From: Candidatus Omnitrophota bacterium
GTDB lineage: Bacteria > Omnitrophota > Gorgyraeia > JAFGIU01
Assembly (NCBI GenBank): GCA_016929445.1
Contig: JAFGIU010000012.1
Location: 1 to 36,624 of the forward strand
DNA length: 36,624 nt
Direction: 5' to 3'
The position numbers and the translations under genes are program-made. Shown here one piece after another: positions 1,994 through 34,221 of this stretch (positions are counted from its first letter, which is position 1; every line of letters starts with the position of its first letter). The notes under the pieces are model-generated. The model made no database searches. It saw nothing but the letters and a program-made list of their open reading frames with translations, and was not told where the DNA came from.

Positions 1994-4689
1994 AACCTTG
2001 AAAGATACTCTCCGTAACCTTCTTCTTCCAATTTCTCAACGGGAATAAAGCGCAAGGCCGCGGAGTTGATACAATAGCGCTGACCCGTGGGCTGCGGGCC
2101 ATCGTCGAAAACATGCCCCAAATGTGCATCTGCCCGCTTGCTGCGAATCTCAACGCGCCTCATGCCAAAGCTATGGTCCTCAACTTCCACAATCTCCTCA
2201 GGCTCAAGAGGCCGGGTGAAACTCGGCCAACCCGTGCCCGACTCAAATTTGTCCGTGGAGATAAACAGGGGGACCCCGGAAATCACGTCCACATAAAGAC
2301 CGGGCTTCTTGTTGTCCCAGAGCGCATTCTGAAACGCGGGTTCTGTGCCGCATTCCCGGGTCACATGGTACTGTTCCGGAGTCAAAAGACTCCGAAGTTC
2401 TTCGTTGGACTTGTTTGAATGATCGTTCATTTGCCCACCTTTCGGCATCTCCAGCAGTTTCAAATACTCTTTCTCCTGCTCGTCGCTGAACGGCGAGCAG
2501 CGTAAAGCTGTAGTCAACAACAAGACCTTGTCCCCAAAAAAGATCTGAGGCTGGCGCAGGGCTGCAGCCCGGTCCAAAAGACGGACACCCTTTTCCTGCG
2601 CTTCCAAGGCGCCCTCCATGTCATTAAGGCCCTCGAGCGCGCGCGCCAGGTTGATGTAGCCATGCGCGAATGCGGGCTCCGCGGAAAGTGCCTTTCTGAA
2701 AAGGCCGGCCGCCGAGTCAAAACGGCCCTCAGCCCACGCGCGCCAACCGGCATTGTTGAGCTGCACCCATTTCTGATTCTCCAAGATCAACCCGCGCGAC
2801 TTTGGGGCTTTAACAACCAATCCATTGGCCAAACGCGAGCGGGCCACTTCCGTGCGATGAGCACAAGCCGCGGCCTCTTCGGGATTCCCGGAAAGGGCGT
2901 AGAGCAGGGCTAACTGGTCCCAGGCCGGGAAAAAGTCTTTGTTGAGATCAACTGCCTTGCGCAAAAGTCCAGCGGCCTCCGCACTTTTCCCGTCTTGTTG
3001 CAAAACCTGCGACTGGACTAAGAAAAGAGCGGAATCTGCGGATCTCTCCAATCCCTGCTGTGCCAGGCGAAGGGCCGCGTTCCTCTCCCCTGATTCCAGG
3101 AGCACTTTTGCCAGTGCACAGGTATTGGCCGCAGAGGTGTCCTTCTCATAAGCCTTCTGATAGTCTTCCAGATTCAGGTCAAACAGCAAATGCGTGCCGT
3201 AAAAAACGTGATCCGGCGCATGGGATCTGAGCCACGCATAGGTCTCCAATGGATCCAGAAAATCCCAATAATCCGCGGCCTGCACCAAGATTCTCCCCAG
3301 CACCGGTTTTCCAGGATCCATGACCATGGGTCCCCAGGATTCCAGCTCTTTCTCGACCAAGGGCCCTGTTTGCCCCCAATCCAGATTGGAATCCAAAAAC
3401 ATTTTATAGGCCTGCCCGGGCCCGCCGGAGATCTCATTGAAGTAACCGGTCTCATTTGGGTGACTGAGCGCCGAGGCAGCCAGATACCAAACCCCAAAGC
3501 CGGCCACGGCCAAAGGCCCCAAGACTTTCTGCCAGGCAACTTCCCCGACAATACGCGACAACACAATCACCAAAGGCGCATACAGCGGCAAGAGATAACG
3601 CAAACCCTGGGCCCGGGGATTACAGAATGAAAAATACAGGGCCACGACTCCGATCAGCAGCAACAGCATCCCCTCGCCGTGGACAAAACGCGGCCGTTTG
3701 AAGACCTTCCATCCGGCATATCCCACAACCAAAAGCAAAAAGGGTGCGGGATTCTTGTACAAAAAGCTCAGGGCCTGATACTGAGGCCATCCGCTCATCG
3801 AGAATTCGCCGTTCAAAAATCCCGGGAATCCCACGGAAGAGAGATAGAACTGGAAGTCCAGGCTCCGCACAAAGAGCCCGGGCAAGGGAAGAGGAATCCG
3901 GTTCAGGACAGGGACCTGGCTCAAACTCAAGAAAAGATTCGAAAGATAGCTGTGGGCTGCCAGGCTTTGCCCAAATCCGTTGAATGCATAGCCCGCATTG
4001 AGCACCGCTAAGGCGCTCAATCCCACAAAGACCAAGCGGCGCAAGGCCTCTCCCGCGGCGCGGATGCCCTGGGCCCGCGCTCCGGCCAAACCCTCAACAA
4101 TCGCCGCCAACACCAAGACCCCGGCAGCCAAGAGGGCCACATGCTTGGTCAGCAGAGCCAAGCCCAACCAAAGCCCTGAGGCCAGCGCATGCCCCCAATG
4201 CCACTCCTTGGCCGCCTTCCACCAGTGATAAAAAGCCGCAAGGATCAGGGCACTGACCGGCACATCCAGATTGCCGGTTGAAGCATGACCTGCCAACACC
4301 GGATTCCACAGCAACAAAAAGAGTGCCGCCACTGCCGGGGGCGCGCCGTACATTTCCCGGGCCCACCGGAAGGTATAAAAGCCCAGCAAGAGACTAAAAC
4401 CCAGACCCGCAATGCGAACCGCGTACAGATCCAGACCGCTGTGACTCAGGCCTACAACTCGAAGCAAGCCCTCTTGCAAGAGCGGCCACAGGGGCGGGTG
4501 ATGCAGAAGAAAGCGCACATCCCAGTTGATGGGAGGATTCCACAGAGCCCGGCGCATGGCCTCGTAAAAGGGCTCGTCCCCGGTCGGACCCGTGCTAAGT
4601 GCCCGCAAAACTGCAAACAGGAGAAAACCCAGGGTGAAGGCCGTGACCCAAAGCCCGGTGCGCCGCGAGGATCTCAACGCAGAGTTCAT
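1990..4689 (-). CDS. GT-C membrane glycosyltransferase-TPR protein fused to MsrB
   Basis: 899 residues in three parts. Residues 1-500 form a polytopic membrane enzyme of the ArnT/PMT (GT39-like) class, with an acidic first loop after helix 1 (TGDEPF, D38/E39) and HHPPLWP; such enzymes move a sugar from a polyprenyl carrier. Residues 520-705 contain TPR-like helices, probably periplasmic. Residues 754-899 are a complete MsrB, reducing methionine-R-sulfoxide: [17 protein letters not shown] and catalytic Cys in RYCINSA (about C873). It is the zinc-free kind, lacking both CxxC pairs. The join is in frame with no stop, and an internal ATG at 2430 has its own AGGTGG upstream, suggesting two genes that lost the separating stop. 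The start overlaps the upstream gene by ATGA at 4686-4689. Confidence 0.85.
2428..2442 (-). promoter_or_regulatory. msrB: Internal ribosome binding site and ATG for free MsrB
   Basis: Reading the minus strand, AAAGGTGGGCAAATG puts a Shine-Dalgarno-like AGGTGG a few bases before the ATG at 2430. Initiation here would give a free 146-residue MsrB (1990-2430), the normal length for the family and starting as stand-alone MsrB proteins do. In the fused frame these bases are read as the linker KGGQ. Both products may be made. Confidence 0.5.
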
Positions 4690-9102: not shown

Positions 9103-10773
9103 TCATTCTCGCCCGGCGGCAGGCTCACCAACAACATAAAGAGTGACGCTCTCAACCGGCCCCCGGGAAAAGGCATAGGGCAGAAATCCCCACGCATGCG
9201 AATAAAATCCTGACAGAGCTTTGTGAGACATCGTTCGAATTGGAGAATCTGATTCAAGGTCAAAGCGTTGTATCTCCATCAACCGCATTTCATTCTCCTC
9301 AGATAAACGCCAAGGACATGCAAGGTCCGACCGGAACACAAAATCCCCCGGCTCAGGCTCTTTGTCTTTTGCCAGATAGGAAGCGCCCGCCACGTGCATA
9401 TAGTAACGGAATCCCCACTCCCCGATATACCAACACTCACTCTGCTTATTTAGAAATCCCCTCTTAACGATATTGTCCACAAACTGCCGGCAACTGTTGG
9501 CCAGGTGATAGTCTGCTGCAGCCACGAGCAAACCCACCAATGCGGTCAGCATTACCGCAGGCCTCAACAATTTCTTTGCCCGGTCCGCGTCAAACCGAAG
9601 CACCCAAAGCAAGAGAACCGGGGGAATGACCGGCAACCAATAGCGTACAGCTCCGAACGGCAGCAACATAATTGCCAAAAAGGCATAACTTAGGATCCAC
9701 CACAATAGAAAACCCTTTTTAGGGTCTCGCCAATCCGAAAATGGCAAGAAAAGCGCCCCCACGCCGGCCAAGAGACACACCATGAGCAAGACGCGATTCA
9801 AAAGTGTGTGAGCACAAAGCTCCTGTCGCAGAAGCCCGCAAGCCAAAACAATACCCCCTGCGGCAACAAGAAGTCCTATCCACCTTCGGATAGTGGGTTT
9901 GTGAAACACAATAAGAAAGACCGGGAAAATCGTCGCTCCTCCCAATGAGATAATCAGACTGGCAAGGATCTCTGCCCGGTCTTCTGTTATATTTCTGAAC
10001 GCCCATAAATACTTCAGCCACTCCGCATGAAACCCAAAGATAGGCTCCAGCCCTAAAGGCCACAGACTTCCCAAGAGTACCAGGATGGCCACACCCCAAG
10101 GTAAGAGCAGCCGCAGCGCCACAGTACGAATGCCTTTCCAGCCCGAGGAGAACCACCCAAAAGCCAGCAGCGCCGGAATGATCCAAAAAGTCGTATACCG
10201 GATCATGGATCCACAAAAGAAGAACAGCACGCTCGCCGGCGCATTCCACGGACTCTGGGAGTCCCAGCTGCGGAGGAAATAATAAATTCCTCCAAGGATC
10301 AGAGCCAGGGCCGGAACATCACTCATCACATTGTGAGCATTTAGAAGAAATCCCGGAGTGCACAGGAGCCCCAGAGCCACCCAAAAGGCATGCGAAGTAT
10401 ACATTCGTGCAACTAAATAGCAGAAAAGAACACTAATGAATGTGAAGCACAGCATGAGCAGATGATAATGGACCTCTGATGCTTGCGGCACAACCGAGCG
10501 AAAACCACGAAGAAGATGTACAAGAAAGGGCGGGTGAAAAAAAGACTTGGACAGGGTCATGGGCTGGCCAAACACGTATCCTGGAAAAGTGTACCGGGCA
10601 AAGTTCGCATGCACGGTTTGTGAACGTGTTTCTCTGGAAAACCCAACAAAATAAGCACTATCCACATGGTAGGCTTTACCGGTAAACGGGAGACAAAAAA
10701 CCAACACTGCCGCCAATAAAAGCAGGATCTCAATCCGGAAGCACCTGACTTCCTTGATTTCAGCCCTGGACAT
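9103..10773 (-). CDS. Polytopic GT-C type glycosyltransferase
   Basis: A 556-residue membrane protein. Helix 1 is followed by a periplasmic loop with an acidic residue (KAYHVDSAYFVGFSRE, D38), then HPPFLVHLL, and many hydrophobic segments to about residue 430, ending in a soluble domain of some 130 residues. This is the topology of ArnT/PMT-like enzymes using polyprenyl-phosphate sugars. The substrate is unknown. The ATG at 10773 lies 5 bases after AAGGAGT, a strong ribosome site placed inside the end of the DegT gene, with which it overlaps by 14 bases; the aminotransferase may make the amino sugar used by this enzyme. Confidence 0.82.
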   Translation of the reverse strand: MSRAEIKEVRCFRIEILLLLAAVLVFCLPFTGKAYHVDSAYFVGFSRETRSQTVHANFARYTFPGYVFGQPMTLSKSFFHPPFLVHLLRGFRSVVPQASEVHYHLLMLCFTFISVLFCYLVARMYTSHAFWVALGLLCTPGFLLNAHNVMSDVPALALILGGIYYFLRSWDSQSPWNAPASVLFFFCGSMIRYTTFWIIPALLAFGWFSSGWKGIRTVALRLLLPWGVAILVLLGSLWPLGLEPIFGFHAEWLKYLWAFRNITEDRAEILASLIISLGGATIFPVFLIVFHKPTIRRWIGLLVAAGGIVLACGLLRQELCAHTLLNRVLLMVCLLAGVGALFLPFSDWRDPKKGFLLWWILSYAFLAIMLLPFGAVRYWLPVIPPVLLLWVLRFDADRAKKLLRPAVMLTALVGLLVAAADYHLANSCRQFVDNIVKRGFLNKQSECWYIGEWGFRYYMHVAGASYLAKDKEPEPGDFVFRSDLACPWRLSEENEMRLMEIQRFDLESDSPIRTMSHKALSGFYSHAWGFLPYAFSRGPVESVTLYVVGEPAAGRE

Positions 10774-11827
10774 GAAGACTCCTTAGCGCTTCTTCGATTC
10801 TCAAGAACTCCGGGTCTTCCATAAGGGGATATAAAGGAAGCGTGACGACCTCAGCACAAACCTTTTCAGATACCGGAAGACTTTTGGCCGCAATTCCTAG
10901 GCGTTGAAGGGAAGGTTGGCGATGCAAAGGAACAGGATAATGCATCCCGGTTTCTACGCCATAATTGAGCATCTTCTGTCTAAGACCCTTCCGATCTGGA
11001 ACCCGAATAGCCATCATGTGGTATACATGACTCCCCTTGGGGCCCGGGCACTGGTAACCCATGCCACAATCATCCAGAACTGTCCGGTACCGCTGCGCCC
11101 ACAGAATGCGCCGGGCATTCCAATCCTCCAGACGCCGGAGCTTGGCGCGCAACACAGCTGCTTGCATGGCATCCATCCGGTGACTGAAGCCCAGTTCCTG
11201 ATGAACCTGATAGCCTTCTTGCCCATGATTCCTAAGAGTTCGAACGCGCGCCGCCAAACCAGGATCATGGGTCACAACCGCACCCGCATCTCCCCAGGCT
11301 CCCAAGTTCTTGGTCGGATAAAAGCTGAAACAACCGATATCTGCGAAAGTCCCGGCTTTCAGACCCCCAAGAACTGCACCATGCGCCTGGGCAGCGTCTT
11401 CGACGACCCGCACACCAAATTCGTTCGTCAGATCCAGCAGTTCCCTCATTGGCGTCATCCGGCCGTAAAGATGTACGGGAATCACTGCGCGTACACGGGA
11501 CCTCTGACGCAACGCCTGCCGCACACCGGCTAAGTCGATCAAAAAGGAACCGGGATCTATATCCACAAAAACCGGGGTCGCTCCCACATGGCACACGGCC
11601 TCAGCAGTCGCCACAAACGACGCGGCCGGCACCACAACTTCGTCCCCGAGTCCGATTCCAAGGGCCCTGAGCGCAAGGGAAAGGGCGTCAGTGCCGGAAG
11701 AAACGCCCACACAATGGCCTGATCCACAGTAAGCGGCAAATTCCTGTTCAAAGGTCTCTACCTCTTCCCCAAGAACGAATTCCGAGGCCTCCGCAACACG
11801 TGTAACGGCCTGGGACACCTCGGACAA
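10760..11827 (-). CDS. DegT/DnrJ/EryC1 aminotransferase for nucleotide sugars
   Basis: A PLP enzyme that aminates keto-sugar nucleotides. The listed TTG start gives 355 residues: SSGTDALSLALRALGIG binds PLP phosphate, VEDAAQAHGA carries the conserved Asp, SFYPTKNLGAWGDAG the internal-aldimine Lys (about K173), and HYPVPLHRQPSL the substrate loop. The family's N-terminus is clearly longer: the same frame upstream reads EVSLFAPSRENALVLSEV, a normal DegT opening, and stays open to 11930-11932 (TAG), yet contains no ATG, GTG or TTG before the TTG at 11827. An ATG at 11886 lies in another frame. Either a non-standard start is used, or a frameshift (biological or in the assembly) hides the start. 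Confidence 0.9.
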   Translation of the reverse strand: MSEVSQAVTRVAEASEFVLGEEVETFEQEFAAYCGSGHCVGVSSGTDALSLALRALGIGLGDEVVVPAASFVATAEAVCHVGATPVFVDIDPGSFLIDLAGVRQALRQRSRVRAVIPVHLYGRMTPMRELLDLTNEFGVRVVEDAAQAHGAVLGGLKAGTFADIGCFSFYPTKNLGAWGDAGAVVTHDPGLAARVRTLRNHGQEGYQVHQELGFSHRMDAMQAAVLRAKLRRLEDWNARRILWAQRYRTVLDDCGMGYQCPGPKGSHVYHMMAIRVPDRKGLRQKMLNYGVETGMHYPVPLHRQPSLQRLGIAAKSLPVSEKVCAEVVTLPLYPLMEDPEFLRIEEALRSLHVQG

Positions 11828-11911: not shown

Positions 11912-11979
11912 GGCTGCGCTCCAGGAAGACTAAAACCAAGTTTGTATTATCTCATATGTCCTGCCGCCCGGGAGACCCT

Positions 11980-13338
11980 GTGAAGGCCAAACTCATTCTA
12001 ATCTGTTTATGCCTGCTTCTAGCAATAGTCGCTGTCAAGGCGCTCCTGTCCGATAGGGTCCCTGCCCGAAACAAAAGCCCGAACCTTATCCTCATCTCAA
12101 TTGATTCCCTGAGAGCCGACCATCTTGGCTGTTATCACTATGGAAAGCCAACATCTCCCAATATTGACCGTCTGGCAAAACAAGGCATTCTTTTCACCGA
12201 TTGTACGGCTAGCTCGTCTTGGACACTTCCCTCACACGTCAGCATGATGACGGGCATGTACCCCAGTTCTCATGGGGTCATTAATCCCAATTTCAAGCTC
12301 CGTGATGAGGCCGATACTCTCGCGGAACAACTCAAATCCAATGGATATTCCACTGCGGCCTTTGTCTCCGGCCCCCTGGTTACTTCGACTTTCGGATTTG
12401 ACCAAGGCTTTGACATTTTCGAGGAAAGCAATAGCAGCACCCTCGAGGAAAAAGGGGCCGGCGATATCACCTCCCCTGGTCTCACACAGGCAATAATCTC
12501 CTGGCTGAAGAAGCCTGGCAAAGACCCGTTCTTTCTCTTCCTGCATTTTTGGGACGTGCACTACGACTATATCCCGCCGGATCCCTATGCAGGCTTGTTC
12601 GACAGAGACTATACCGGAACCTTTGACGGAAGAGATTATGTCCACACTGATATTCTCGGCCCCCCCGTAGATGCGAATGCACTAAACCACGCACAAGCCC
12701 TTTATGACGGAGAGCTGCGCTGGGTGGATTACCACGTGGGATTAATTCTCGATGCGTTGGAAGAGCTGGATCTCGACACCCATACTGTTATCCTGCTCAC
12801 CTCCGATCATGGAGATGAGTTCAATGACCACGGAAATCTAGGTCACGGCAAGAATCTCTATGAGAGCACGCTTCGGGTTCCTTTGATCTTGGCATCGCCC
12901 TATCATCCAAAAGGAGTTGAAATCTCCACACCTACCTCAATTGTGGATATCCCTGCTACCCTTCTGGACGCCGTTGGAGTCGTCTCGAGTATCCCTACCG
13001 AAGGAGCTTCCATTCTGGCCCAATCCGCTCACACGGCACGACCCATATTTTCGGAACTCCATGAGGAGTTCAAATCCGTACGGATTGGTGTAAATAAGGG
13101 CATTTTTGATTCCAGGGATCAATTGATTGAAGCGTACGATCTGGCCACAGATCCCCGCGAATATTCCAATCTTGTCTCAAATCCAAACACATCCTTCGAG
13201 ATGACCGCCCGGAAACTTAAGGAGAAATACACTACGTGGCAGGATACAGTACGGAAGAAACAGAATTGGGCAGTGCGCAGGGCTAAGCAACAGGAGGAAA
13301 TCTCAGAACAACTCCGGTCCTTGGGTTACCTGCACTAG
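11980..13338 (+). CDS. Membrane-anchored sulfatase-fold hydrolase/phosphotransferase
   Basis: An alkaline-phosphatase-superfamily protein of 452 residues from GTG 11980, with an N-terminal anchor or signal (LILICLCLLLAIVAV). LISIDSLRADHLGCY holds the first metal-binding Asp, WTLPSHVSMMTG the nucleophile site, and SDHGDEFNDHG plus GHGKNLYE the second metal site. The nucleophile position is Thr (TLPSH) rather than the Cys/Ser of a formylglycine sulfatase (CxPxR), so true sulfatase activity is doubtful; phosphoglycerol/phosphoethanolamine-type transfer is an alternative. The catalytic domain should face the periplasm. GGGAG at 11970-11974 sits 5 bases before the GTG; an in-frame ATG at 11956 has no ribosome site. 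Overlaps the convergent radical SAM gene by 36 bases. Confidence 0.85.
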   Translation: MKAKLILICLCLLLAIVAVKALLSDRVPARNKSPNLILISIDSLRADHLGCYHYGKPTSPNIDRLAKQGILFTDCTASSSWTLPSHVSMMTGMYPSSHGVINPNFKLRDEADTLAEQLKSNGYSTAAFVSGPLVTSTFGFDQGFDIFEESNSSTLEEKGAGDITSPGLTQAIISWLKKPGKDPFFLFLHFWDVHYDYIPPDPYAGLFDRDYTGTFDGRDYVHTDILGPPVDANALNHAQALYDGELRWVDYHVGLILDALEELDLDTHTVILLTSDHGDEFNDHGNLGHGKNLYESTLRVPLILASPYHPKGVEISTPTSIVDIPATLLDAVGVVSSIPTEGASILAQSAHTARPIFSELHEEFKSVRIGVNKGIFDSRDQLIEAYDLATDPREYSNLVSNPNTSFEMTARKLKEKYTTWQDTVRKKQNWAVRRAKQQEEISEQLRSLGYLH

Positions 13339-14751
13339 GACTTCGGAGGATTGTTTTTGGACTTGACGCCAAGCCTCGTGCCGGAGACGTTTAAGGTCAT
13401 CCGGCCCAAATTCAGAGGTTTGAATATTCCCCTTTGCAAAACGCAAATCAATCAACCGGGTTCCTTTAACAAGAAACCCCTCCTCAATACATTGATTCCA
13501 TAAAGGGGTACCCGGAAAAGGTGTCGCAATCGAAAAGGTCGCACTGTCCAACTCAAGGGCAAGAGCCATCTTCACCGTACGGTACATGTCCTCTAAAGTC
13601 TCTCCGGGATATCCCAACATGAATGTCCCATCCGCGAACATACCCAAGTCCTTGACGCTCCGGACCAAGGCAGGTACCCGGCCAAGCAAGACAGGCTTAC
13701 CCATGGAGTCTAACCGGCTTTTGTCTGCCACCTCGATAGGCAGACCCACCCTGTAACAACCGCTGGCACGCATCTTTTCAAGAAGGGCCTGATCCAAGGT
13801 CCAAATCGCCAACCCGACCACCGCATACCAACTTAGACCCAAGCCACGCTCCACCATTCCGTCAAAGAGCTTCGCCGCATACCTTTTATTCAGAGTAAGA
13901 TTGTCGTCAAAGAAATGCATTTCCCGTATTCCCGAGGATACCAAGAGCTCCATCTCGTCGAGCACATCTTCGACATCCCTCAAACGATAGGACGAACCCC
14001 AGAGACTTTCAGAGGCACAGAAGGAACAGCCCACCGGACAGCCTCGCGATACGACAACCGGAGTGAACGGATGACGCAGCACAGGACGGTAACCAAAAGG
14101 ACGTATTGTCAACTCTGAGTACCTCTTGATCGGCAACAGATGCCGGGCCGGCAAGGGCAGCTTCTTCGCGCACAACGGCATCAAAGGCCGGCTGGCCGTT
14201 CGGTGCTGTTCATCACCATCCCGGAATGCGATTCCCCGGACAGTGTTGAGGTCCTTCCCGGCACTTAGGGCCCGCACAAGCTCGAGAAAGGTCTCTTCTC
14301 CTTCTCCCAAAACAGAGATATCCACGGTATCGTCGTTCAAAACTTGGCCTGTCAGGACAGTCGGATAAACCCCTCCCATCACCGTCACGATATCCGGATC
14401 GATCCTCTTAACAAGACGGCAGACTTGATGGGATTGCTCTGCCTGAACAAAATGGAGGCAGGAGACACCCACCAAATCAGGCTGAAACTCCCGGATTCTT
14501 TGCTCGATATCTTCTGTCCCGAGGCCGTATTCAAAGAGCCCCTCTTCCAGGAGTCTGTGCTGAGCGTATCCCTCGAGAATGGTGTCCAAGATTTGCACCT
14601 CACACTCAGGCTCCAGCGCAGCAGCCAAATAAGCCAAGCCCAAGGGCGGGTAGGTGCGTTTACTCTCCCCCTCTTCCAAACAGGTGGTCGGCGGCAACAC
14701 AAGCAAGATGCGATGAATGGGGCGTTGTCCTTTGCGCTTATTTCTTGTCAT
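13303..14751 (-). CDS. B12-binding radical SAM protein (C)
   Basis: 482 residues. An N-terminal cobalamin-binding Rossmann domain (ILLVLPP through GGVYPT, about 15-150) precedes a radical SAM domain with the cluster motif CPVGCSFC (C238, C242, C245), then YPGETLEDM and TPFPGTPLW typical of this class. Such enzymes methylate or rearrange unactivated carbons. The substrate is unknown; GT and lipid neighbours suggest a glycan or lipid. It is the last gene of a six-gene minus-strand operon and starts 78 bases after the UbiV-like gene, with GGGGAT upstream of its ATG. It overlaps the convergent sulfatase-fold gene by 36 bases. Confidence 0.9.
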   Translation of the reverse strand: MTRNKRKGQRPIHRILLVLPPTTCLEEGESKRTYPPLGLAYLAAALEPECEVQILDTILEGYAQHRLLEEGLFEYGLGTEDIEQRIREFQPDLVGVSCLHFVQAEQSHQVCRLVKRIDPDIVTVMGGVYPTVLTGQVLNDDTVDISVLGEGEETFLELVRALSAGKDLNTVRGIAFRDGDEQHRTASRPLMPLCAKKLPLPARHLLPIKRYSELTIRPFGYRPVLRHPFTPVVVSRGCPVGCSFCASESLWGSSYRLRDVEDVLDEMELLVSSGIREMHFFDDNLTLNKRYAAKLFDGMVERGLGLSWYAVVGLAIWTLDQALLEKMRASGCYRVGLPIEVADKSRLDSMGKPVLLGRVPALVRSVKDLGMFADGTFMLGYPGETLEDMYRTVKMALALELDSATFSIATPFPGTPLWNQCIEEGFLVKGTRLIDLRFAKGNIQTSEFGPDDLKRLRHEAWRQVQKQSSEVLVQVTQGPELF

Positions 14752-14829
14752 GTGCGATCCCCATTCCCGGAGTCCCGTCTGGCGTCAAACCGTCAACCTC
14801 AATACATTGATTCCGAATAACGTCTGCCT

Positions 14830-15681
14830 TCATATCGGCAAATCAGGCTGAAAAACAAACCGAGTCACAAAAGGGTAAGACAAAACCTCTGGAATGCTGC
14901 GGGAACTCTTGTAGAACTGGGTGTTTCCCTTGAGCAAAAGGCCGCCCGGAACACTCGAGTGCGCAAGCTTGTAGCCCCCTCCCCGGCACTCTTGCGCACA
15001 GGACCTGGCACCCAGGCCCCCCCGGTTGAAAACACAGTCGCGAGTGTTCGTCACGACCGCATAAGGCCAATATAAGGAAACCGCGATCCCAGTTCCGGTG
15101 AACTCATCTTCGACTCCCTGGTCCAGGACATCCAGTTCGACTCGACTCACACCCAGTCCCTCAAGGAACGAAACGGCTTGCTTGCTCAGACCCATTTGGC
15201 GCATTCTCTGTTGAGCTCCTGAGGGCAACTCATCGAAATAGGGAAGAATGCGCGGGTCTCTGCGCTGCTTGTTAAGCAGCCTCCCTTGGACAGGCTTTAA
15301 ACCATACTGCCGGCAAAGTCTCAACACACCCCAGTCGTTGTAGACAACCTCGGCATCCGGTAAGGACTCCGAGAGAAAAGACAACAGACTCTCCGCCCGG
15401 TCCAAAAAGTCTTCCCCAACAGGTGGAGTCAGCAGCGTAAGAGGTCTACAGATCTTGCCCGCTTCCAACACAAGATCCTGAAGTTCTTCAACGCTCGGCA
15501 TCAGATAGTGGCAGAATTCGTTTCCATAATAGATGCGGTCCCAGCTCTCACTGGATGCAATAGACGCAACGGTTTGAGCGTGAAGCGCTGCTTCACATCC
15601 GGGCCGGGCAGCATTAATTAAGCCCGGGACTTTCTGAGGATTACGCGTAGTAGCAATAACGACGTTCACAATCATTCCCAT
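14830..15681 (-). CDS. U32 family protein, UbiV-like
   Basis: 283 residues of the peptidase-U32/UbiUV superfamily TIM-barrel type: YYGNEFCHYLMPSVEELQDLV, PPVGEDFLDRAESLL and VVYNDWGVLRLC are characteristic. Cysteines at 57, 216, 228 and 232 (CX11CX3C at the end) closely match the spacing of the four iron-sulfur ligands known in E. coli UbiV (C39, C180, C193, C197). UbiV with UbiU hydroxylates a ring without oxygen. Here the ubiquinone genes and UbiT are absent, so the substrate is probably different. It overlaps the UbiU-like gene by 41 bases, implying coupled translation and probably a heterodimer. GTG 15669 is an alternative start. Confidence 0.82.
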   Translation of the reverse strand: MGMIVNVVIATTRNPQKVPGLINAARPGCEAALHAQTVASIASSESWDRIYYGNEFCHYLMPSVEELQDLVLEAGKICRPLTLLTPPVGEDFLDRAESLLSFLSESLPDAEVVYNDWGVLRLCRQYGLKPVQGRLLNKQRRDPRILPYFDELPSGAQQRMRQMGLSKQAVSFLEGLGVSRVELDVLDQGVEDEFTGTGIAVSLYWPYAVVTNTRDCVFNRGGLGARSCAQECRGGGYKLAHSSVPGGLLLKGNTQFYKSSRSIPEVLSYPFVTRFVFQPDLPI

Positions 15682-16684
15682 AGTGATTTTGGTAAATTCG
15701 ACGCATTTTACTTTCGTGTTCCTCCGGTGACTGGGTTTCCAGTACCGCTAACCCCTGCTTTACCATCCGGACTGCTTGGAGTTTTCGAGACAATGAATAC
15801 TCACGGCCGGCTATCTTCAAGTAGGACACTCCCGCATTGCGTAAGTCACCAAGATTGCACAAACCACACGCCTGCAGAGATTTCGAAAGACTCTCTTGGA
15901 CAGGCTTTGTCCATCTCTTGTGCCAGTCCTCCGAAGCGCCTGACAAGGGGCTAATGTCGTAGTCCAAACAGCAGCCAAAACTTGCCCGCATCATCCTGTG
16001 GTCTATCTTTTCCGAAACCCTCAATGGCAATTGGTTCACAATCGCTTTGGCCAAGGATGTCGCACGCAAATCCATCAGACTAAACCACTTCCCAACTCCC
16101 AACCCATGCTGAAAAGTACAAAAGGCATCCACATTCTTGCAACGGGTGTTCATGACCAAGATTTCAAAGTCCAGGTCAGGAACCTTTCGGACCAATGTGG
16201 CAATTTCGGCCAATGCTAAGTGCCTCGGCAAAATTACCCGCGAAACTCCAAGATCACGATAGAGTTTCGCTCCATCCGAATTCAAAACGCCACTCAAGAG
16301 ACTCAAGTGTATTTCAAAGTCTCCTGAAAATTCCTTTCTCAAGACATGAATCAATCCAGGATCTGCCACAATACAGCTTTTCAACCCGGACCCCGCCAAC
16401 TGCCTGATTTGTTCCAGGACCCAATCGAGTTGCGGCTGAGAATACGATTCGTTCAGGGCAAGGCTGATGCCTGCACTCTGCTCACTTGCCGTGCGAACAG
16501 CCTCCTTAAATGCCTGCGTGCCTCCAAAAGATCCGTGCGGACAGTACCGCCGGTTGGGCCCCCCTAAATGACTGTACTCCTGGGTCCAGTCGCGTTCAAA
16601 AATCCCGCAGAAAAACTCATCTGCTCCTGCCTCAATCAGCGGAAGCACTTCTAAACCTTCAGAGAGTGGCGCAACGATCTGCAC
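15641..16684 (-). CDS. U32 family protein, UbiU-like
   Basis: 347 residues of the U32 superfamily: EAGADEFFCGIF at the start, the family signature VSRVILPRHLALAEI near 147-161, and AGVSYLKIAGRE near 284-294. Cys182 and Cys189 have the CX6C spacing of UbiU (C169/C176), followed by C238/C239 and CGLC (273-276), enough to hold a [4Fe-4S] cluster. The end CERRYCYYA adds two more cysteines. Likely partner of the adjacent UbiV-like protein. GTG start with GAGG five to six bases upstream. Overlaps the WbqC gene end by 26 bases. Family relatives hydroxylate ubiquinone precursors, tRNA or rRNA using prephenate; the target here is unknown. Confidence 0.85.
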   Translation of the reverse strand: MQIVAPLSEGLEVLPLIEAGADEFFCGIFERDWTQEYSHLGGPNRRYCPHGSFGGTQAFKEAVRTASEQSAGISLALNESYSQPQLDWVLEQIRQLAGSGLKSCIVADPGLIHVLRKEFSGDFEIHLSLLSGVLNSDGAKLYRDLGVSRVILPRHLALAEIATLVRKVPDLDFEILVMNTRCKNVDAFCTFQHGLGVGKWFSLMDLRATSLAKAIVNQLPLRVSEKIDHRMMRASFGCCLDYDISPLSGASEDWHKRWTKPVQESLSKSLQACGLCNLGDLRNAGVSYLKIAGREYSLSRKLQAVRMVKQGLAVLETQSPEEHESKMRRIYQNHYGNDCERRYCYYA

Positions 16685-17372
16685 TTTGACCTCGCGTGAT
16701 CACGGCCAGGCTTTCCGGCCCTGCATTAAAAAGAAGGTCGGGGATTCCCATATAAGGAATGAACCCCTCGTAAACCTGCGAATATCGAGGATGAAGATAG
16801 TCCTGATATTGAAACTGGATATTTGCCTGGTGAAGCTCTTGCTCATCAAGGTATACGCGCGCTGCAGACGAAGAAAGATAGTCTGTGGCCCCGAGTTCCC
16901 GGCAAATAGAGATCACCCCGTCTGTCTTTGTAGCCTTGGAGCTAAGGTCTGTGGACAAAATTATTTCCGTCTCAATTCCCAGCTCTCTTACACACCACAA
17001 AATAATCTCCAGGTCCAAGTCGACCAAATTGCGCCATGTCCTCTTGAGCAAAATGCTTTCAAAAAAGCCGGCATAAGAATTAAAGTAGGGAGCCCTTCTG
17101 TAGCTATCTCTCAAAGTCTTCCAGTGCTTCAAAGCCCAGCCCTTGTGGTTATCAACTTTGACTTCCTTTAGACTCTGGCCAAATCGTCCTCTTGAGAACA
17201 CAGGCACCGATAACCAGACAGGCCCGTGAGAACTCCGGATTCGGTTCCGGTTCCTCCAGGAATGCCGGTCATACTGAACATCCAGATGCAACACAAAGGC
17301 ATCGCAGCGATGAATCTGGTCAAAAAAACCAAGCCAAGGAAGATACCCGACCTGGTGAATTCCTATGCGCAC
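16659..17372 (-). CDS. WbqC-like family protein
   Basis: 237 residues matching the WbqC family (PF08889): IHQVGYLPWLGFFDQIHRCDAFVLHLDVQYDRHSWRNRNRI is the diagnostic opening, followed by WLSVPV and the helical KHWKTLRDSYRRAPYF region. WbqC proteins occur in O-antigen and glycolipid clusters and are thought to act in sugar or lipid modification; the mechanism is not established. The frame opens at a GTG at 17387, but the GTG at 17372 has GGGAG eight bases upstream and starts just before the conserved IHQ, as in homologues, so it is chosen. Five bases separate it from the preceding radical SAM gene's stop. Confidence 0.88.
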   Translation of the reverse strand: MRIGIHQVGYLPWLGFFDQIHRCDAFVLHLDVQYDRHSWRNRNRIRSSHGPVWLSVPVFSRGRFGQSLKEVKVDNHKGWALKHWKTLRDSYRRAPYFNSYAGFFESILLKRTWRNLVDLDLEIILWCVRELGIETEIILSTDLSSKATKTDGVISICRELGATDYLSSSAARVYLDEQELHQANIQFQYQDYLHPRYSQVYEGFIPYMGIPDLLFNAGPESLAVITRGQSADRCATL

Positions 17373-17377
17373 AGGTT

Positions 17378-18850
17378 CTACTCCCACAAGGTCTTTATGG
17401 CATACTTAAGCCGCAACCACCACGATTTCCAAGCAAGACCCCGGCGTGTTTTTGTAATGCGCCGCACCGGTCTTCCATTACGCGTAAACGCGCCAAAAAA
17501 ACCTATCCATAGTCCACGCAACTGGTAAATACGATAATACAGAGGGGATAACGGCAATGAAATAAGCAAGCCCCTTATAGAGTACAAGCAGGGGTGTGCA
17601 ACAAGAATTGCAAACAGATGATGTAGATTTGTAACCTGCCGTTCATACTTCCTATCTGCAAATTTCAACGGGGAACGGGGTCGGTAGAAAGCCATGCTGC
17701 TAAGCTTGTTCGAGTCACCATTGTAGTACCCTTCCTTGATAGCTTTCTGAGTTAAGGGCAGATTAGGAAAGGGCTTAAAGAAAAACGCCATAGGGTTCAC
17801 AGGCTGGACCAAGTAATTAATCTTCAGAGTATGCAATTCTGCTTCTATGTCGGATCCCGGCACTGCCAAGATATTGTAGAGAGAAAAGGGCACATGACAT
17901 TTCTTGAGCAGATGAACAGCACGCACAAAGGTCCGCTGAGACATGCGCCGTCCCATCACCTCCTTCCGGATCTGCACATCACCTGACTCTAACCCCAACG
18001 AAGCTAGAGTACACCCCGCATCTTTCAGCATATTCGCTATAGGCTCCGTAATGAGCTCTGCTCTCAGATTACAGTGAAATGGTAATCCTATCTTCTCTTT
18101 ATAGGTCGCAAAAAAGTCTTCCAACCAAGCCATCGGAGGCAGTATCAGAATATCATCATAGAAACCGATAACAGATCCTGGATACATCGACTTCACTTGT
18201 TTAAGTTCCTCCATAAGACTCCCAACACTTCTTCTTCGGACCCTCTTCCCTTTTCCTTTGTAAAGTTCCGCATAGACAGGAACGTAGCAATAGGTACACG
18301 AAAAGGGACACCCCCGACTTGCCATGGCAGGCTGATGAAACTCATTGGGGGGGTACTTCCCTTTGAAGAGGTCTCGATCCGGAAAAGGAAGCTCATCCAG
18401 ATCTGAAATAAGAGGTTGAATATCGTTCTTGTGCCAATGATCCCCTTCTCGAACCCACCAATTTGGCACATCGTACAAAGACTCTCCATCTTGCAGTCTA
18501 CGAATCATCTCCACCATGGCGATCTCGCCCTCTCCCCTGCAAAATGCATCAATACACTTTGCTTTCGCAACATCCTCCGGAGCATAGGTTGGGTGGGGTC
18601 CTCCAAAACATATGAAGGCATTCGACTCGCGCTTCACCTGCGATGCAAGATATAGGAATCTCGAGAAGCACATGCTTGGAGTGCTAAATGCAACCACATC
18701 ATAGGTTTTTTCCCTAAAGGCTCTGCGGATTTCTGTAATTGACCCGTCCACGCATTGGACCTCATGCCCTCTGCACTTCAATACCGACGATAGGCACATC
18801 ACTCCTAGCGGAGCCGGCTGATGGAGACTTGCAACAAAAAGAATTTTCAT
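17378..18850 (-). CDS. B12-binding radical SAM protein (B)
   Basis: 490 residues. KILFVASLHQPAPLGVMCLSSVL starts the cobalamin-binding domain, which continues to CFGGPHPTYAPED (about 81-93). The radical SAM cluster motif is CPFSCTYC (C181, C185, C188), followed by DDILILPP and LGLESGD. The C-terminal region contains hydrophobic stretches (LFAILVAHPCLYSIRGLLISLPL), which suggest membrane contact and so a lipid-linked substrate. The ATG at 18850 overlaps the upstream gene's stop (ATGA 18847-18850); the frame runs further upstream but only antisense-like sequence is added. Substrate unknown. Confidence 0.9.
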   Translation of the reverse strand: MKILFVASLHQPAPLGVMCLSSVLKCRGHEVQCVDGSITEIRRAFREKTYDVVAFSTPSMCFSRFLYLASQVKRESNAFICFGGPHPTYAPEDVAKAKCIDAFCRGEGEIAMVEMIRRLQDGESLYDVPNWWVREGDHWHKNDIQPLISDLDELPFPDRDLFKGKYPPNEFHQPAMASRGCPFSCTYCYVPVYAELYKGKGKRVRRRSVGSLMEELKQVKSMYPGSVIGFYDDILILPPMAWLEDFFATYKEKIGLPFHCNLRAELITEPIANMLKDAGCTLASLGLESGDVQIRKEVMGRRMSQRTFVRAVHLLKKCHVPFSLYNILAVPGSDIEAELHTLKINYLVQPVNPMAFFFKPFPNLPLTQKAIKEGYYNGDSNKLSSMAFYRPRSPLKFADRKYERQVTNLHHLFAILVAHPCLYSIRGLLISLPLSPLYYRIYQLRGLWIGFFGAFTRNGRPVRRITKTRRGLAWKSWWLRLKYAIKTLWE

Positions 18851-20310
18851 TTTTGGCTGCGATCCCTTTCCGGAAAACAGACACGTCCAAGCGCGTGCAT
18901 CATTCGAGATATTATGATCGTCTGAAAATTCATCCATGCAATCTGCAGGAGGGTCCAAATCAAAAATCCCCGGCTGACATCCGCAGTAAAATTAGCCTTT
19001 TCCAGGCGTCCGTTGGATATGTCGTCGTAGAAATATCCCCAGTTCTCAAATGTCTGAGGAGGCTCCCAGCCTCGCTTCTCCAATTCCTCTGCAAGAGGTG
19101 TGCCGGGAACGGGCCTGAATATATGCGGGTAAACAATCATTTTGGCCCCAAACTTACCGACCTTCATAGGTATTCGGGCCATCTCCTTGCAAAACTTCAG
19201 TGTCTCTCGTATATGAGCCTTGGTCTCATCCGGCAGCATGAGCATCACTCCTACAGACGGCGCAATACGCTGCTCTTTGGCCGATCGGACAAAAGACAAC
19301 GAACGATCCCGGTTCTTGAAGCTCGCATAAGACCTAAGAAAATCCTCCTCGGCAGTTTCAATCCCGGCATAGACAAACGAACAACCCGCTTCCTTCATCA
19401 ACTCCAATGTCTCCGTCTTGGTGTTCACATCCACCTCGGACCAAAAGGAGAGATTGAGTTTAAGATCAATAATCGCCTTCAGAACATCCCGCACTGCCTT
19501 CTCGTTTCCCGTAAAGCTGTCATCGACAAAACTCACGCGCCGACCTTTCATATCGACTCTTTCCGAAATAGCTACAAGTTCCTGCACCACAGCCTGGGTG
19601 GGGCGGTGTCGCCATGAGTAATACTTCTCATACCCCGATAAATAGCAAAATGAGCAACGATGATGGCAACCCCTGGAAAGCTGCACCCCAATTGTCCGGT
19701 AGTCTTTCAAATCCAGAATCGTATGATCCGGAATAGGTAACTGCGAAAGATCTGATACCAGCGAATTCGGAGTTACAACCACATCCCCATCCTTCCAGTA
19801 ACAGACTCCCTCGGTGGGAAGAGAATCCGCTTTGCCTTCTATAAACTCCAATACCTGAGGCACAATCCAATCCGATTCACCCACAAACACATAGTCTGCG
19901 ACCGTGGTCCTCAGACTCTGCTCGGGAAGCAAACTGACGTGAGGACCCCCAAGAAATATCAAACATCCGAGCTGACTCTTCAAAAACCGGGACATCTTAT
20001 CGATCCAAACCAAATTGCCCCCGGCAGAACAAGTGAAACCGACCACATCCGGAGAATAGTCGATGACTTCCTGGATATCAGCTCCTTGGAGAAAGTTGAA
20101 GATCTTGACGTCGTGATTGGCCTTCAGAATGGTGGCCAGTTGAACCAGGCCGGTAGGGTATAGGTTGTCCAGATGAAAAAACTTGCGGGTTATGGGAGAC
20201 CACACTTGATTCCAAAGCTTGCTCCGGGATAAGTCATGCAAGAACCTGAATCCCGAATTACTACGCATCTCTCCCGTATCCATCCCAGGCATCAGAAGCG
20301 CGATTTTCAT
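18847..20310 (-). CDS. B12-binding radical SAM protein (A), first gene of the operon
   Basis: 487 residues: cobalamin-binding domain (KIALLMPGM, YPTGLVQLATILK, FLGGPHVSLLPEQ), then radical SAM motif CHHRCSFC (C215, C219, C222), DDSFTGN and YAGIETAEED. The last 60 residues include a hydrophobic stretch (GFLIWTLLQIAWMNFQTIII), again hinting at membrane association. First of six co-directional genes with overlaps or very short gaps. A TATCAT box at 20331-20326 on the minus strand lies about 15 bases upstream of the ATG with no ribosome site between, so the message may be almost leaderless. Divergent from the nucleotidyltransferase gene across 139 bases. Confidence 0.9.
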   Translation of the reverse strand: MKIALLMPGMDTGEMRSNSGFRFLHDLSRSKLWNQVWSPITRKFFHLDNLYPTGLVQLATILKANHDVKIFNFLQGADIQEVIDYSPDVVGFTCSAGGNLVWIDKMSRFLKSQLGCLIFLGGPHVSLLPEQSLRTTVADYVFVGESDWIVPQVLEFIEGKADSLPTEGVCYWKDGDVVVTPNSLVSDLSQLPIPDHTILDLKDYRTIGVQLSRGCHHRCSFCYLSGYEKYYSWRHRPTQAVVQELVAISERVDMKGRRVSFVDDSFTGNEKAVRDVLKAIIDLKLNLSFWSEVDVNTKTETLELMKEAGCSFVYAGIETAEEDFLRSYASFKNRDRSLSFVRSAKEQRIAPSVGVMLMLPDETKAHIRETLKFCKEMARIPMKVGKFGAKMIVYPHIFRPVPGTPLAEELEKRGWEPPQTFENWGYFYDDISNGRLEKANFTADVSRGFLIWTLLQIAWMNFQTIIISRMMHALGRVCFPERDRSQK

Positions 20311-22094: not shown

Positions 22095-24431
22095 TTGGCC
22101 CGGCTCACCTTCCAAGTTTTTTTACTCTTGGCGATTACAGCCGCGGCCTGTTCCGACTCGAGAAGCCTGGAAGTGACTCGGGATGATCAGGCGGTCAGAC
22201 TCATTAAAGTTTCGGAATTTAGTGAGAGTTTAATCCATCTGCCCACGGTCTTCTTCACTGAAGAAGGCGACCCCTTACGAACCCTCCTGAGCCGACAAGA
22301 CCTGAGTTCGGCAAAAACCGTTTTGGATATCGGTACAGGCACAGGCATCCTGGGGTTGATCGCTCTCAAACACGGTGCCGGACGCGTCGTGGCCACAGAC
22401 ATTAACCCTGAAGCAATAAGAAATGCGCGGTTGAACGCAGAGCGCCTGGGTTATTCAGCGGACAATTTCGAAGCAAGACTCGTAGCCCCGGAGAAGCCGC
22501 AAGCCTTTTCAGTCATCGAGCCCGAAGAGAAGTTCGACCTTATCCTCTCCAACCCACCCTGGAAAGAAGGGCCGGTCAAAAGCATCGAAGACTACGGGCA
22601 GTACGACCCAAACCGGGTTCTGCTGGGGAGCCTGATGCGCGGACTCAAGGCCCACTTGAGCCCTGCAGGCCGGGCATGGCTCTTCTTGGGCAGGGAGGAG
22701 ACAATCAATCTGGCCCTGGAATTGAGCTCGGAAGAGGCTTTAAACACACGTCTGCTGGATGACAAGACCCTTGACCCGCTGAATCGCCGTGTTGTGATCC
22801 TGGAAATCACGCACCCCCAACATGTCATCCTCATCTCTCTCGATGCCCTCCGGGCGGACCACCTTTCTTGTTATGGTTACGAACGCAAAACCTCCCCGCA
22901 CATCGACCATCTTGCCGAAGATTCGCTCCTCTTTAAGAGGGCTCATGCCACATCCTATTACACTCTGCCTTCGCACGCCTCGCTATTCACCGGCCTGGAA
23001 CTTAACTCCCACGGCGTATCCACGGCCTCTCCCCTGGCTGGCACCATCCCCACTCTCAGCGAAACCCTTAGATCCCGAGGCTTTAGAACAGGAGCCTACG
23101 TGGCCGACATCCCCTGGTTCAGTCCCGGCTACGGTCTCGATAGAGGATTCGATACTTTTGAGCAGATTCCGGTCCATGCCGAGGACCAAATCAATCGCGC
23201 GATTCGCTGGATCGGAAAGAATCGAAATTCCGATTATTTCCTTTTCTTACACATCTTTGATATTCACTCTGATACCGACGTACTCCCCTATGATGCTCCC
23301 GAACCGTTTGCTGGAATGTGGTCAACTTCCCCGGACCCGAGCCTCCGGGCCCGGTGGGAGTCTCTGTCCCAAAGCCCCAGTGAATACCTTTGGGAACTTT
23401 CTTGGTCCGAGGACACTTTGCCGCCTGAACAAATTCAGTTTCTCCGGGACTCCTACGATGAAGGCATTGCCTACGTGGACCACGAGTTGGGCAGGCTGAT
23501 TTCCTTTCTCAAGTCAGAGAGGTTATACGAAGGCACCTGGATATTTCTTCACTCGGATCACGGCGAAGAGCTCGGCGATCATGGTAAATTTTTCCACATC
23601 CAAACCTATGAAGAGGTGCTCCGGGTCCCCTTGATCCTAAAGCCCGCTTCCGGAAGGCTCCCCCCGGCTCATCTCTCGGAACCCGTGAGCCTTGTCGACA
23701 TCTTCCCCACTCTGCTTGAACTCCTGGGCGTACCCTTAGCAAAACCCGTAGACGGCCGAACGCTTGTGCCGCTGATGCTCGGGAGGCCTTGGACAAGCTC
23801 GCCTGTGTACGCCATTCGGAGTATCGGGGGAGAGTACGTTGCCTGGATCGGCCCCTGGAAGGGCATTTATGAGTCCTGGAGAAATAAACTGAAGACACTC
23901 TACAATCTGGATCTGGATCCACAAGAGCGCCGGAACCGCCTCCATGACGCGCCTGAAAACCAGATCAGACTATTTGACGAGACTTTCCGGTCCTTTTCTT
24001 CCCGTCTCCCGGATGACCGGTCAATCATTCTCTCGGTCGACGGCCCTCAGGCAGAACGCGAGTCGCTTATAATTACCCTCACCAGTCCCGGAGTCTTGGA
24101 CTTTGGACCCCTGCCTCCCTTTATCCAGACTGATATTTCTGCTGTGCCAAACGGGTTCCAATACAAGCCCACAAAATTCCTTGCTCTGCTCAGAATCAAG
24201 GTGACTCCTGAAGAGGCTCCCATTCAGTTGGATGTAAACAGGGAAGGCATCCGGGCGGAACCCGGTATTGTCTATTTCGGATCCCCTCTCAGCCATCCGC
24301 AAAGTCTCCCCTTTGAGTTTCAGATGAAAGATGTAGGCAGTGTGGATGTGGAACGCAATTTGATTGGGCAAACTCAAGCCCGGATAATCTTGCACAGCCT
24401 GAAGAAGGCTGAAGCACTCACCCGCAAGTAG
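22095..24431 (+). CDS. Signal sequence + SAM methyltransferase + sulfatase-fold fusion protein
   Basis: 778 residues. Residues 1-19 are a signal or lipoprotein-like sequence (VFLLLAITAAACSDS, Cys19). Residues 45-235 are a class I methyltransferase: VLDIGTGTGILGL (motif I, 77-84), VVATDINPEA, and DLILSNPPW (motif IV, 148-156), resembling PrmA/HemK-type enzymes. Residues 243-600 are an alkaline-phosphatase/sulfatase fold: LISLDALRADHLSCYGY (metal Asp 250), YYTLPSHASLFTG (Thr290 at the nucleophile site, no formylglycine motif), HSDHGEELGDHG. Residues 640-778 look like a beta-sandwich. If exported, the methyltransferase domain would have no SAM. Start is TTG 22095; no ATG or GTG lies upstream in frame before a stop. 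The frame shows no break at the junction. Overlaps the convergent gene by 14 bases. Confidence 0.82.
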   Translation: MARLTFQVFLLLAITAAACSDSRSLEVTRDDQAVRLIKVSEFSESLIHLPTVFFTEEGDPLRTLLSRQDLSSAKTVLDIGTGTGILGLIALKHGAGRVVATDINPEAIRNARLNAERLGYSADNFEARLVAPEKPQAFSVIEPEEKFDLILSNPPWKEGPVKSIEDYGQYDPNRVLLGSLMRGLKAHLSPAGRAWLFLGREETINLALELSSEEALNTRLLDDKTLDPLNRRVVILEITHPQHVILISLDALRADHLSCYGYERKTSPHIDHLAEDSLLFKRAHATSYYTLPSHASLFTGLELNSHGVSTASPLAGTIPTLSETLRSRGFRTGAYVADIPWFSPGYGLDRGFDTFEQIPVHAEDQINRAIRWIGKNRNSDYFLFLHIFDIHSDTDVLPYDAPEPFAGMWSTSPDPSLRARWESLSQSPSEYLWELSWSEDTLPPEQIQFLRDSYDEGIAYVDHELGRLISFLKSERLYEGTWIFLHSDHGEELGDHGKFFHIQTYEEVLRVPLILKPASGRLPPAHLSEPVSLVDIFPTLLELLGVPLAKPVDGRTLVPLMLGRPWTSSPVYAIRSIGGEYVAWIGPWKGIYESWRNKLKTLYNLDLDPQERRNRLHDAPENQIRLFDETFRSFSSRLPDDRSIILSVDGPQAERESLIITLTSPGVLDFGPLPPFIQTDISAVPNGFQYKPTKFLALLRIKVTPEEAPIQLDVNREGIRAEPGIVYFGSPLSHPQSLPFEFQMKDVGSVDVERNLIGQTQARIILHSLKKAEALTRK

Positions 24432-27198: not shown

Positions 27199-28209
27199 AT
27201 GAAGGTACTCATTCTCGGCAGGCAGGAGAGCCTCTACAACGCCGCTAAACTCCTTGCCGAGCAGACCTCTCATGAGGTCGTGGCCATTATCACCTCCAAA
27301 TCCATGCCCGAGTACCTCAAAGACGAGAAGGACTTTGAAAATCTGGCGGCCGGGTGCGGAGCCCCTTTCCTAAAGACTCAAAACCTGGATGAAAACACCC
27401 TCAAGCTCATCAAAAAGTCCAATGCGGACATCGGAGTCTCCCTGAACTGGCCGGCTCTTATTTCGCAAGAAGTTCTGGATATGTTTCCTTTGGGGATCCT
27501 AAACGCCCATTCGGGGAATCTTCCGAGATTCCGCGGAAATGCCGTGGCCAATTGGGCGATCTTGAACGGCGAAGACAAAATTGTGTTCACCATTCACCAG
27601 ATGGTGGCCTCAGGGGTGGATGAAGGCGCAATCCTTTTGCAAAGAGAAATGCCTCTGAATGACGAAACCACGATTCAGGACATCAACGAGCGCGGTGCTC
27701 TGGAATACCCTGCAATGTTCGCTGAAGTCCTGGCCGGATTGGAAGCCGGCAATCTGAGCCCCATTCCTCAGTCCATCCGGGGAGTGTCCCCGGTACGCTG
27801 CTATCCCCGCTTGCCGCGGGACGGCAGAATTAACTGGAGCTTGCCAGCCATGGAAATTCACGCTCTGGTGCGCTCGCTGACAAAGCCCTATGCCGGCGCA
27901 TTCACTTACTACCGGGACAGCCAGGACAAGTTGAGGAGACTTTACATTTGGAAGACACGCCTCGCGGCCCCTGATGGAAGCGGCGTACTCGGTATGCCGG
28001 GTCATGTCATTGAGAATAACCCTGGCACAGGGGAATCACGGGTCCTCACAGGGGACGGGATTCTTACTCTGTGTGAGGCCTCCCACGGGCTTGAGGAATC
28101 CACCTTTAAGCCCGGGAAGCTTTGGAAGAGTGTCCGAATGCGCCTGGGCATGGATGTGGAGGAAGAAATCTTCAGAATCATCAGTACGACAGAACTGCGT
28201 TCAACTTAA
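27199..28209 (+). CDS. Fmt/PurN-like formyltransferase, probably acting on an amino sugar
   Basis: 336 residues. Formyltransferase core with the catalytic triad visible: Asn102 and His104 in LNAHSGNLPRFRGNA, and Asp141 in SGVDEGAIL. The C-terminal part (about 205-320) resembles the Fmt C-terminal/OB region. The enzyme takes formyl from N10-formyltetrahydrofolate. Because it sits immediately after a deacetylase and before a membrane glycosyltransferase, a nucleotide- or lipid-linked amino sugar is a better substrate guess than Met-tRNA; this is inference. No gap from the upstream gene's stop. Confidence 0.85.
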   Translation: MKVLILGRQESLYNAAKLLAEQTSHEVVAIITSKSMPEYLKDEKDFENLAAGCGAPFLKTQNLDENTLKLIKKSNADIGVSLNWPALISQEVLDMFPLGILNAHSGNLPRFRGNAVANWAILNGEDKIVFTIHQMVASGVDEGAILLQREMPLNDETTIQDINERGALEYPAMFAEVLAGLEAGNLSPIPQSIRGVSPVRCYPRLPRDGRINWSLPAMEIHALVRSLTKPYAGAFTYYRDSQDKLRRLYIWKTRLAAPDGSGVLGMPGHVIENNPGTGESRVLTGDGILTLCEASHGLEESTFKPGKLWKSVRMRLGMDVEEEIFRIISTTELRST

Positions 28210-28214
28210 TTTCT

Positions 28215-30319: not shown

Positions 30320-30335
30320 GATTTCCTCCGCCTTT

Positions 30336-31184: not shown

Positions 31185-31187
31185 CGA

Positions 31188-34073: not shown

Positions 34074-34221
34074 TCTTAAAGTCTCCGAGAAAATCGGCCG
34101 GATACAGCCGGATGGCAACCTGGGTCAATACTTCCTTATTTTAAGTGAGTATAGGCCTTAGAGCAATCGACCCGACTCCTTATCCGGATAGCAGATTTAA
34201 AGCAGGATAAATCATAGCGTC

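Follow-up and report, generated by a model that had tools for sequence, protein, structure and literature searches.

A U32-fold protein pair encoded with B12-binding radical SAM enzymes in Omnitrophota: a candidate family of O2-independent hydroxylases

Introduction

Few enzymes hydroxylate without O2, and in the literature covered here the characterized ones of the U32 family act in ubiquinone synthesis and RNA modification only. In ubiquinone synthesis the relevant proteins are UbiU and UbiV, two adjacent U32-fold proteins whose cysteine motifs—CX6CX16CX38C in UbiU and CXnCX12CX3C in UbiV—are associated with one [4Fe-4S] cluster each (PMC6747719). The RNA-modifying RlhA and TrhP act as single proteins; for these U32 oxidases a Cys-ligated cluster is proposed, and their O2-independent hydroxylation has been linked to prephenate as oxygen donor (PMC11574389). 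Hydroxylation with O2 is exemplified by QhpG, the flavin enzyme that dihydroxylates a Trp residue of the gamma subunit of quinohemoprotein amine dehydrogenase (PMC7876137).

Here we analyze a stretch of 36,624 nucleotides (the window), which is the entire contig JAFGIU010000012.1 of an Omnitrophota MAG (2.43 Mb, 97% complete; GCA_016929445.1). The relatives returned for this genome are of the same class, with none closer, and the class-mates include Omnitrophota MAGs. A sequence-only reading of the window had proposed that six genes encoding three B12-binding radical SAM proteins, a UbiU/UbiV-like pair (U and V) and a WbqC-family protein form an undescribed anaerobic modification system, with flanking sulfatase-fold proteins acting at a later stage.

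Results

Organization of the locus

All six ORFs were found on the minus strand at 13303–20310, as that reading had placed them. The first gene, rSAM_C (18847..20310), encodes a B12-binding radical SAM protein (PF02310, 4.8e-14; PF04055, 9.7e-20) with the motif CHHRCSFC. The second, rSAM_B (17378..18850; PF04055, 8.8e-18; PF02310, 2.7e-16; CPFSCTYC), is listed as an ORF of 17378–18958 that overlaps the end of the rSAM_C ORF; judging from the sequence, its start is most likely the ATG at 18850, which shares 4 nt (ATGA) with the rSAM_C stop. The third encodes the WbqC-family protein (16659..17387; PF08889, 7.2e-70, 235.7 bits against a gathering cut-off of 21.3) and overlaps both of its neighbors, rSAM_B and U. 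U (15641..16684; PF01136, 5.9e-27), a predicted UbiU-like U32 Fe-S protein with 7–8 conserved cysteines, overlaps in turn by some 35–41 nt with V (14830..15681), a predicted UbiV-like U32-fold Fe-S protein whose start is uncertain, as the model has pLDDT values of 58–66 across residues 1–20. The first five genes thus overlap, and the last one, rSAM_A (13303..14751; PF02310, 4.6e-21; PF04055, 9.2e-17; CPVGCSFC), starts 78 bases after V. Pfam detects the B12-binding and Radical_SAM domains in all three radical SAM proteins, with CxxxCxxC intact, and confirms U and WbqC; the assignment of V holds through its Cys pattern and its model.

The B12-binding domains of the genome number 12 in 2.43 Mb. 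Three of these lie within 6 kb here, compared with 0.12 expected per 24 kb, which argues for clustering beyond chance. An Rfam scan of the window for RNA regulators, the cobalamin riboswitch included, matched one tRNA only, and in a promoter scan the real sequence scored no better than shuffles.

Immediately downstream of the operon and on the same strand are genes for a PMT_2 glycosyltransferase and a DegT sugar-type aminotransferase (9103..11827), two families that recur beside the U/V pairs of the window's group of loci (defined below). A convergent sulfatase gene on the plus strand (11956..13338; PF00884, 1.5e-48) overlaps the 3' end of rSAM_A by 36 nt. The wider neighborhood encodes a flippase, GT2 and GT-C glycosyltransferases, DegT, a WbmS-like deacetylase and a formyltransferase, and the window itself contains no gene that names the substrate. 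Other ORFs of the window were noted as well. A small methyltransferase-type domain is fused to a sulfatase domain (22095–24431), and PMT_2 glycosyltransferase, TPR and SelR domains are combined in one ORF (1990–4689). A 502-aa ORF with no Pfam match (28122–29630) follows the deacetylase and formyltransferase genes, and consecutive DUF4956, VTC-domain and CotH genes occupy 29639–34118, the CotH protein having a beta-helix.

U and V compared with UbiU and UbiV

Profile comparison with hhalign aligns U with E. coli UbiU (99.1%, E 1.5e-18), along the barrel. The same comparison of V with E. coli UbiV is not significant (E 0.056), and searches of Pfam and NCBIfam gave no match for V; we call it a U32 protein on the basis of its UbiV-like Cys pattern and of a model that best matches the U32 structure 5D88. 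AlphaFold2 models of U (pLDDT 88.8) and V (pLDDT 91.1) both have 5D88 as their best PDB fold, so that a TIM-barrel (U32) fold is predicted for the two subunits. Sequence searches of the PDB with U, V and WbqC gave no meaningful match.

The cysteines of both proteins are strongly conserved. In U, C182, C189, C238, C273, C276, C339 and C344 are invariant in all 57 aligned homologues and C26 is present in 53 of the 57. Their spacing—CX6C, then CX48CX34CX2CX62CX4C—keeps the CX6C of UbiU but not its CX16CX38C, and the published UbiU motif lacks the CX2C and CX4C that contribute to the seven invariant cysteines of U. V presents the pattern CXnCX11CX3C, with the cysteines kept in 70–71 of 71 homologues; this retains the UbiV arrangement with one spacer shorter by a single residue (X11 versus X12). 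The conserved cysteines of both proteins are candidate metal ligands, and U, through its additional CX2C and CX4C, may accommodate a second cluster. By their sequences, U and V are distinct relatives of UbiU and UbiV: the two pairs are alike in being adjacent U32-fold proteins, but U and V are found among radical SAM and glycan genes and not among quinone genes.

The homology of U to UbiU, together with the three UbiA-family genes of the host genome, is what would be expected if the pair were a genuine UbiU/UbiV serving anaerobic synthesis of ubiquinone or another quinone, with the B12-radical-SAM genes as mere neighbors. We give this a slim chance. U reaches only 64 bits against the NCBIfam UbiU equivalog cut-off of 440, its Cys motif is altered and carries extra cysteines, and its context is one of radical SAM genes. 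Moreover, UbiA was not found in the pair-carrying genomes G051 and G097 (the latter only 75% complete), so the pair need not serve ubiquinone. On the UbiU score and these two carriers, a ubiquinone role is disfavored.

Distribution and genomic context of the pair

Relatives of V were sought in 84,980 species genomes; the 164 stretches that encode one were kept as 78 loci. The hosts are Omnitrophota, Elusimicrobiota, Verrucomicrobiota, Thermodesulfobacteriota, Myxococcota, Acidobacteriota, Chloroflexota, Bacillota, and DPANN and Asgard archaea. U is adjacent for 65 of the 85 V genes. V genes without an adjacent U are mostly deltaproteobacterial and have contexts of their own (L062, L063, L066–L068, L071, L080, L082, L083, L085, L086 and L098). 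Within Omnitrophota, V is present in 8 of 99 genomes, with U adjoining. In both the U and the V trees (97/82 and 95/93) the window groups with the loci L108 (Omnitrophota DeMMO2_11) and L102 (UBA6249), each of which has 2–3 B12-radical-SAM genes and GT-C enzymes nearby.

For comparison of contexts, L108, L102, the window and the neighboring tree groups were pooled. The resulting 19 loci, which we call the window's group although their status as a clade is unproven, were set against 43 other loci, with neighbors tabulated within 10 kb. A B12-radical-SAM gene lies within this distance in 15 of the 19 loci versus 4 of the 43 (Fisher 1e-7, a value that ignores kinship and comes from group lists and search seeds drawn up after some contexts had been seen). 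DegT shows the same tendency (10/19 versus 0/43). The window's group also has an FAD oxidoreductase at 10, a Tes-like radical SAM protein at 11 and a GT-C enzyme of PMT type at 7 of its 19 loci. Among 96 neighboring proteins of the pair, 51 are radical SAM and 29 are B12-binding, in genomes with 2 to 35 B12-binding matches in total. Simple Poisson values for this enrichment, in four genomes, range from 7e-3 to 2e-6; these are overstated because B12-radical-SAM genes cluster in these genomes anyway.

The remaining genes of the operon behave differently from the pair. The WbqC gene is present in 21 of the 99 Omnitrophota genomes, yet at 0 of the 78 other U/V loci, and the literature search found no paper on WbqC function. 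Sulfatases accompany the pair in the window and at L126 only, among the 62 tabulated loci; the proposed later action of the flanking sulfatase-fold proteins is unsupported. Close homologues of rSAM_B are found in 52 of the 99 Omnitrophota genomes, mostly without the pair, and a homologue with 34% identity lies at the U/V locus of DeMMO2_11; rSAM_C has no close orthologue among the 99. A strict orthology of either protein to pair-linked genes is thus unsupported. Elsewhere in Omnitrophota, at L141 and L142, WbqC is found next to B12-radical-SAM-like genes without U/V.

The three radical SAM enzymes share the domains PF02310 and PF04055 and the CxxxCxxC motif with known B12-binding enzymes (methyltransferases, HpnJ, BchE), but none reaches an NCBIfam equivalog cut-off (P-methyltransferase, HpnJ, BchE, HpnR and others). 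The best NCBIfam match of rSAM_A is the P-methyltransferase family NF038361 (E 9e-71), as it would be in a phosphonate or phosphinate pathway in which rSAM_A is a P-methyltransferase of the PhpK or Sden_1168 type. Such a pathway has hardly any likelihood in our estimate and is disfavored: the score of 239 bits is far from the cut-off of 575, and the host genome has no PEP mutase match above cut-off.

At other loci, several of the window's group among them, a Tes/TrsS-like radical SAM gene directly precedes U and V (L050:7558-8949; also L053, L055, L057, L058, L075, L078, L081, L089 and L106), in Omnitrophota, Verrucomicrobia, Lentisphaerae, Elusimicrobia and other hosts. Where scanned, this protein has the HMPTM zinc ribbon that it shares with the tetraether synthase Tes (PMC8941075), but the example tested, from a relative, reaches 173 where the Tes cut-off is 450. 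A Tes-type lipid synthase was rejected for the window's system, as no zinc-ribbon domain was found in the host genome and the relative's neighbor falls below the Tes cut-off.

These distributions bear on the possibility that the neighborhood is a loose one: an Omnitrophota glycan island of often-exchanged genes, in which U/V and each of the radical SAM enzymes belong to separate pathways. Neither WbqC nor the sulfatases show conservation alongside the pair, rSAM_B homologues are widespread without it, the B12-radical-SAM subtypes vary between loci (which also weakens the case for one fixed pathway), and the native clustering of these genes inflates the statistics. We nevertheless regard this explanation as unlikely, if deserving of real weight, given the overlapping genes transcribed in one direction and the enrichment of B12-radical-SAM genes around the pair across several phyla. 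The six-gene set as a conserved unit is rejected, since the pair is found elsewhere without WbqC and, L126 apart, without the sulfatases. What is conserved is the adjacency of U and V across phyla and, in the window's group, the recurrence of B12-radical-SAM neighbors. The robust part of the locus is the U-V pair with B12-radical-SAM enzymes; WbqC and the sulfatases are its accidental part.

V-U homologues in qhp operons

V-U homologues also lie within quinohemoprotein amine dehydrogenase (qhp) operons, in Acidobacteriota and one other MAG. At L109:159-9655 they are found among a full qhp set, with the alpha, beta and gamma subunits and QhpD above their NCBIfam cut-offs, QhpE just under (162 versus 165) and an ABC exporter in the cluster. 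At L120:5022-11862 they accompany the alpha, QhpD, gamma and beta genes, and at L113, L114, L115 and L119 they occur with QhpD and parts of the remaining qhp set.

No QhpG was seen within these clusters. As a query against the six genomes we used an FAD monooxygenase encoded in a plasmid-borne qhp operon and regarded as QhpG because of its position. This gave nothing in three of them and weak matches (E 1e-6 to 1e-3) in the other three, compared with 2e-33 for the control; these genomes are MAGs and may miss genes. In comparison with the described qhp operon (PMC7876137), V-U apparently takes the place of QhpG in those MAGs. Since these qhp operons contain V-U but apparently lack QhpG, the simplest interpretation is that V-U carries out the hydroxylation, which makes the V-U proteins of these loci, from gene context, a candidate O2-independent Trp dihydroxylase for assembly of the CTQ cofactor. 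The literature search found no paper covering both U32 proteins and quinohemoprotein amine dehydrogenase. The qhp loci sit on another U/V branch than the window, so the function is transferred to the window by homology within the U/V family as a whole. No qhp gene is present in the window, from which QhpA-D are absent.

The same operons could be taken to mean that the window encodes a RiPP-type module, with a ribosomal peptide as the target of the pair, in the way that we propose for the gamma subunit of qhp, and with the radical SAM enzymes as peptide maturases. Peptide substrates are further suggested for another Omnitrophota U/V group (L044, L047 and L092), where PqqD-like and additional radical SAM genes adjoin. 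In the window, however, the operon has no space left for a gene encoding a precursor peptide and lacks PqqD, rSAM_A–C fall far short of the cut-offs for RiPP maturases, and the neighbors are glycan genes. A peptide-modifying role of this operon is consequently improbable in our judgment.

Discussion

Our preferred explanation of the locus is an O2-independent hydroxylase pair that, with B12-radical-SAM enzymes, tailors a building block of a surface glycan or lipid. We give this reading as a whole an even chance, and its parts differ in strength. That U and V are an O2-independent hydroxylase is quite probable on the evidence of gene context, and their joint action with the B12-radical-SAM enzymes is fairly likely. 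A surface glycan or glycolipid as the substrate is favored by the surroundings of the window and the recurrent DegT and GT-C neighbors, and is proposed more tentatively, at slightly less than even likelihood.

The following mechanism can be envisaged. U and V would probably assemble into a heterodimer in which both subunits are [4Fe-4S] proteins with the U32 fold, and this heterodimer would probably hydroxylate an unactivated carbon, a step for which the gene context provides the argument. Unlike RlhA and TrhP, members of the same U32 family that act on RNA as single proteins, this would be the work of a pair encoded in biosynthetic operons. By analogy with the proposal for UbiU/UbiV, the likely oxygen donor is prephenate; a chorismate mutase was found in each of the eight genomes with the pair that were searched for it. 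Of the known reactions of B12-radical-SAM enzymes, methylation is the most common. The three enzymes of the operon may carry out additional radical steps, C-methylation being the most likely, on the molecule that the pair hydroxylates or on precursors of it. The molecule itself would most likely be a cell-surface sugar or a lipid-linked sugar, and WbqC may be a further modifying enzyme, added in this genome. Of the sequence-only reading, then, an undescribed anaerobic system survives as an O2-independent module of a U32 pair and B12-radical-SAM enzymes in a glycan neighborhood, while the six-gene unit does not. In agreement with that reading, no described pathway with this gene set was found.

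At the level of the family, it is an evenly balanced proposition that U-V is a portable two-subunit O2-independent hydroxylase, recruited to surface glycan or lipid B12-radical-SAM pathways in Omnitrophota and relatives, and replacing QhpG in tryptophylquinone assembly. The qhp context is a directly testable case, with a known substrate, a known product mass and genetics, and could settle the function of the family before the more difficult Omnitrophota substrate is tackled. If the proposition is true, a widespread U32 relative in radical-SAM operons would extend O2-free hydroxylation to new substrates in bacteria and archaea that are uncultured.
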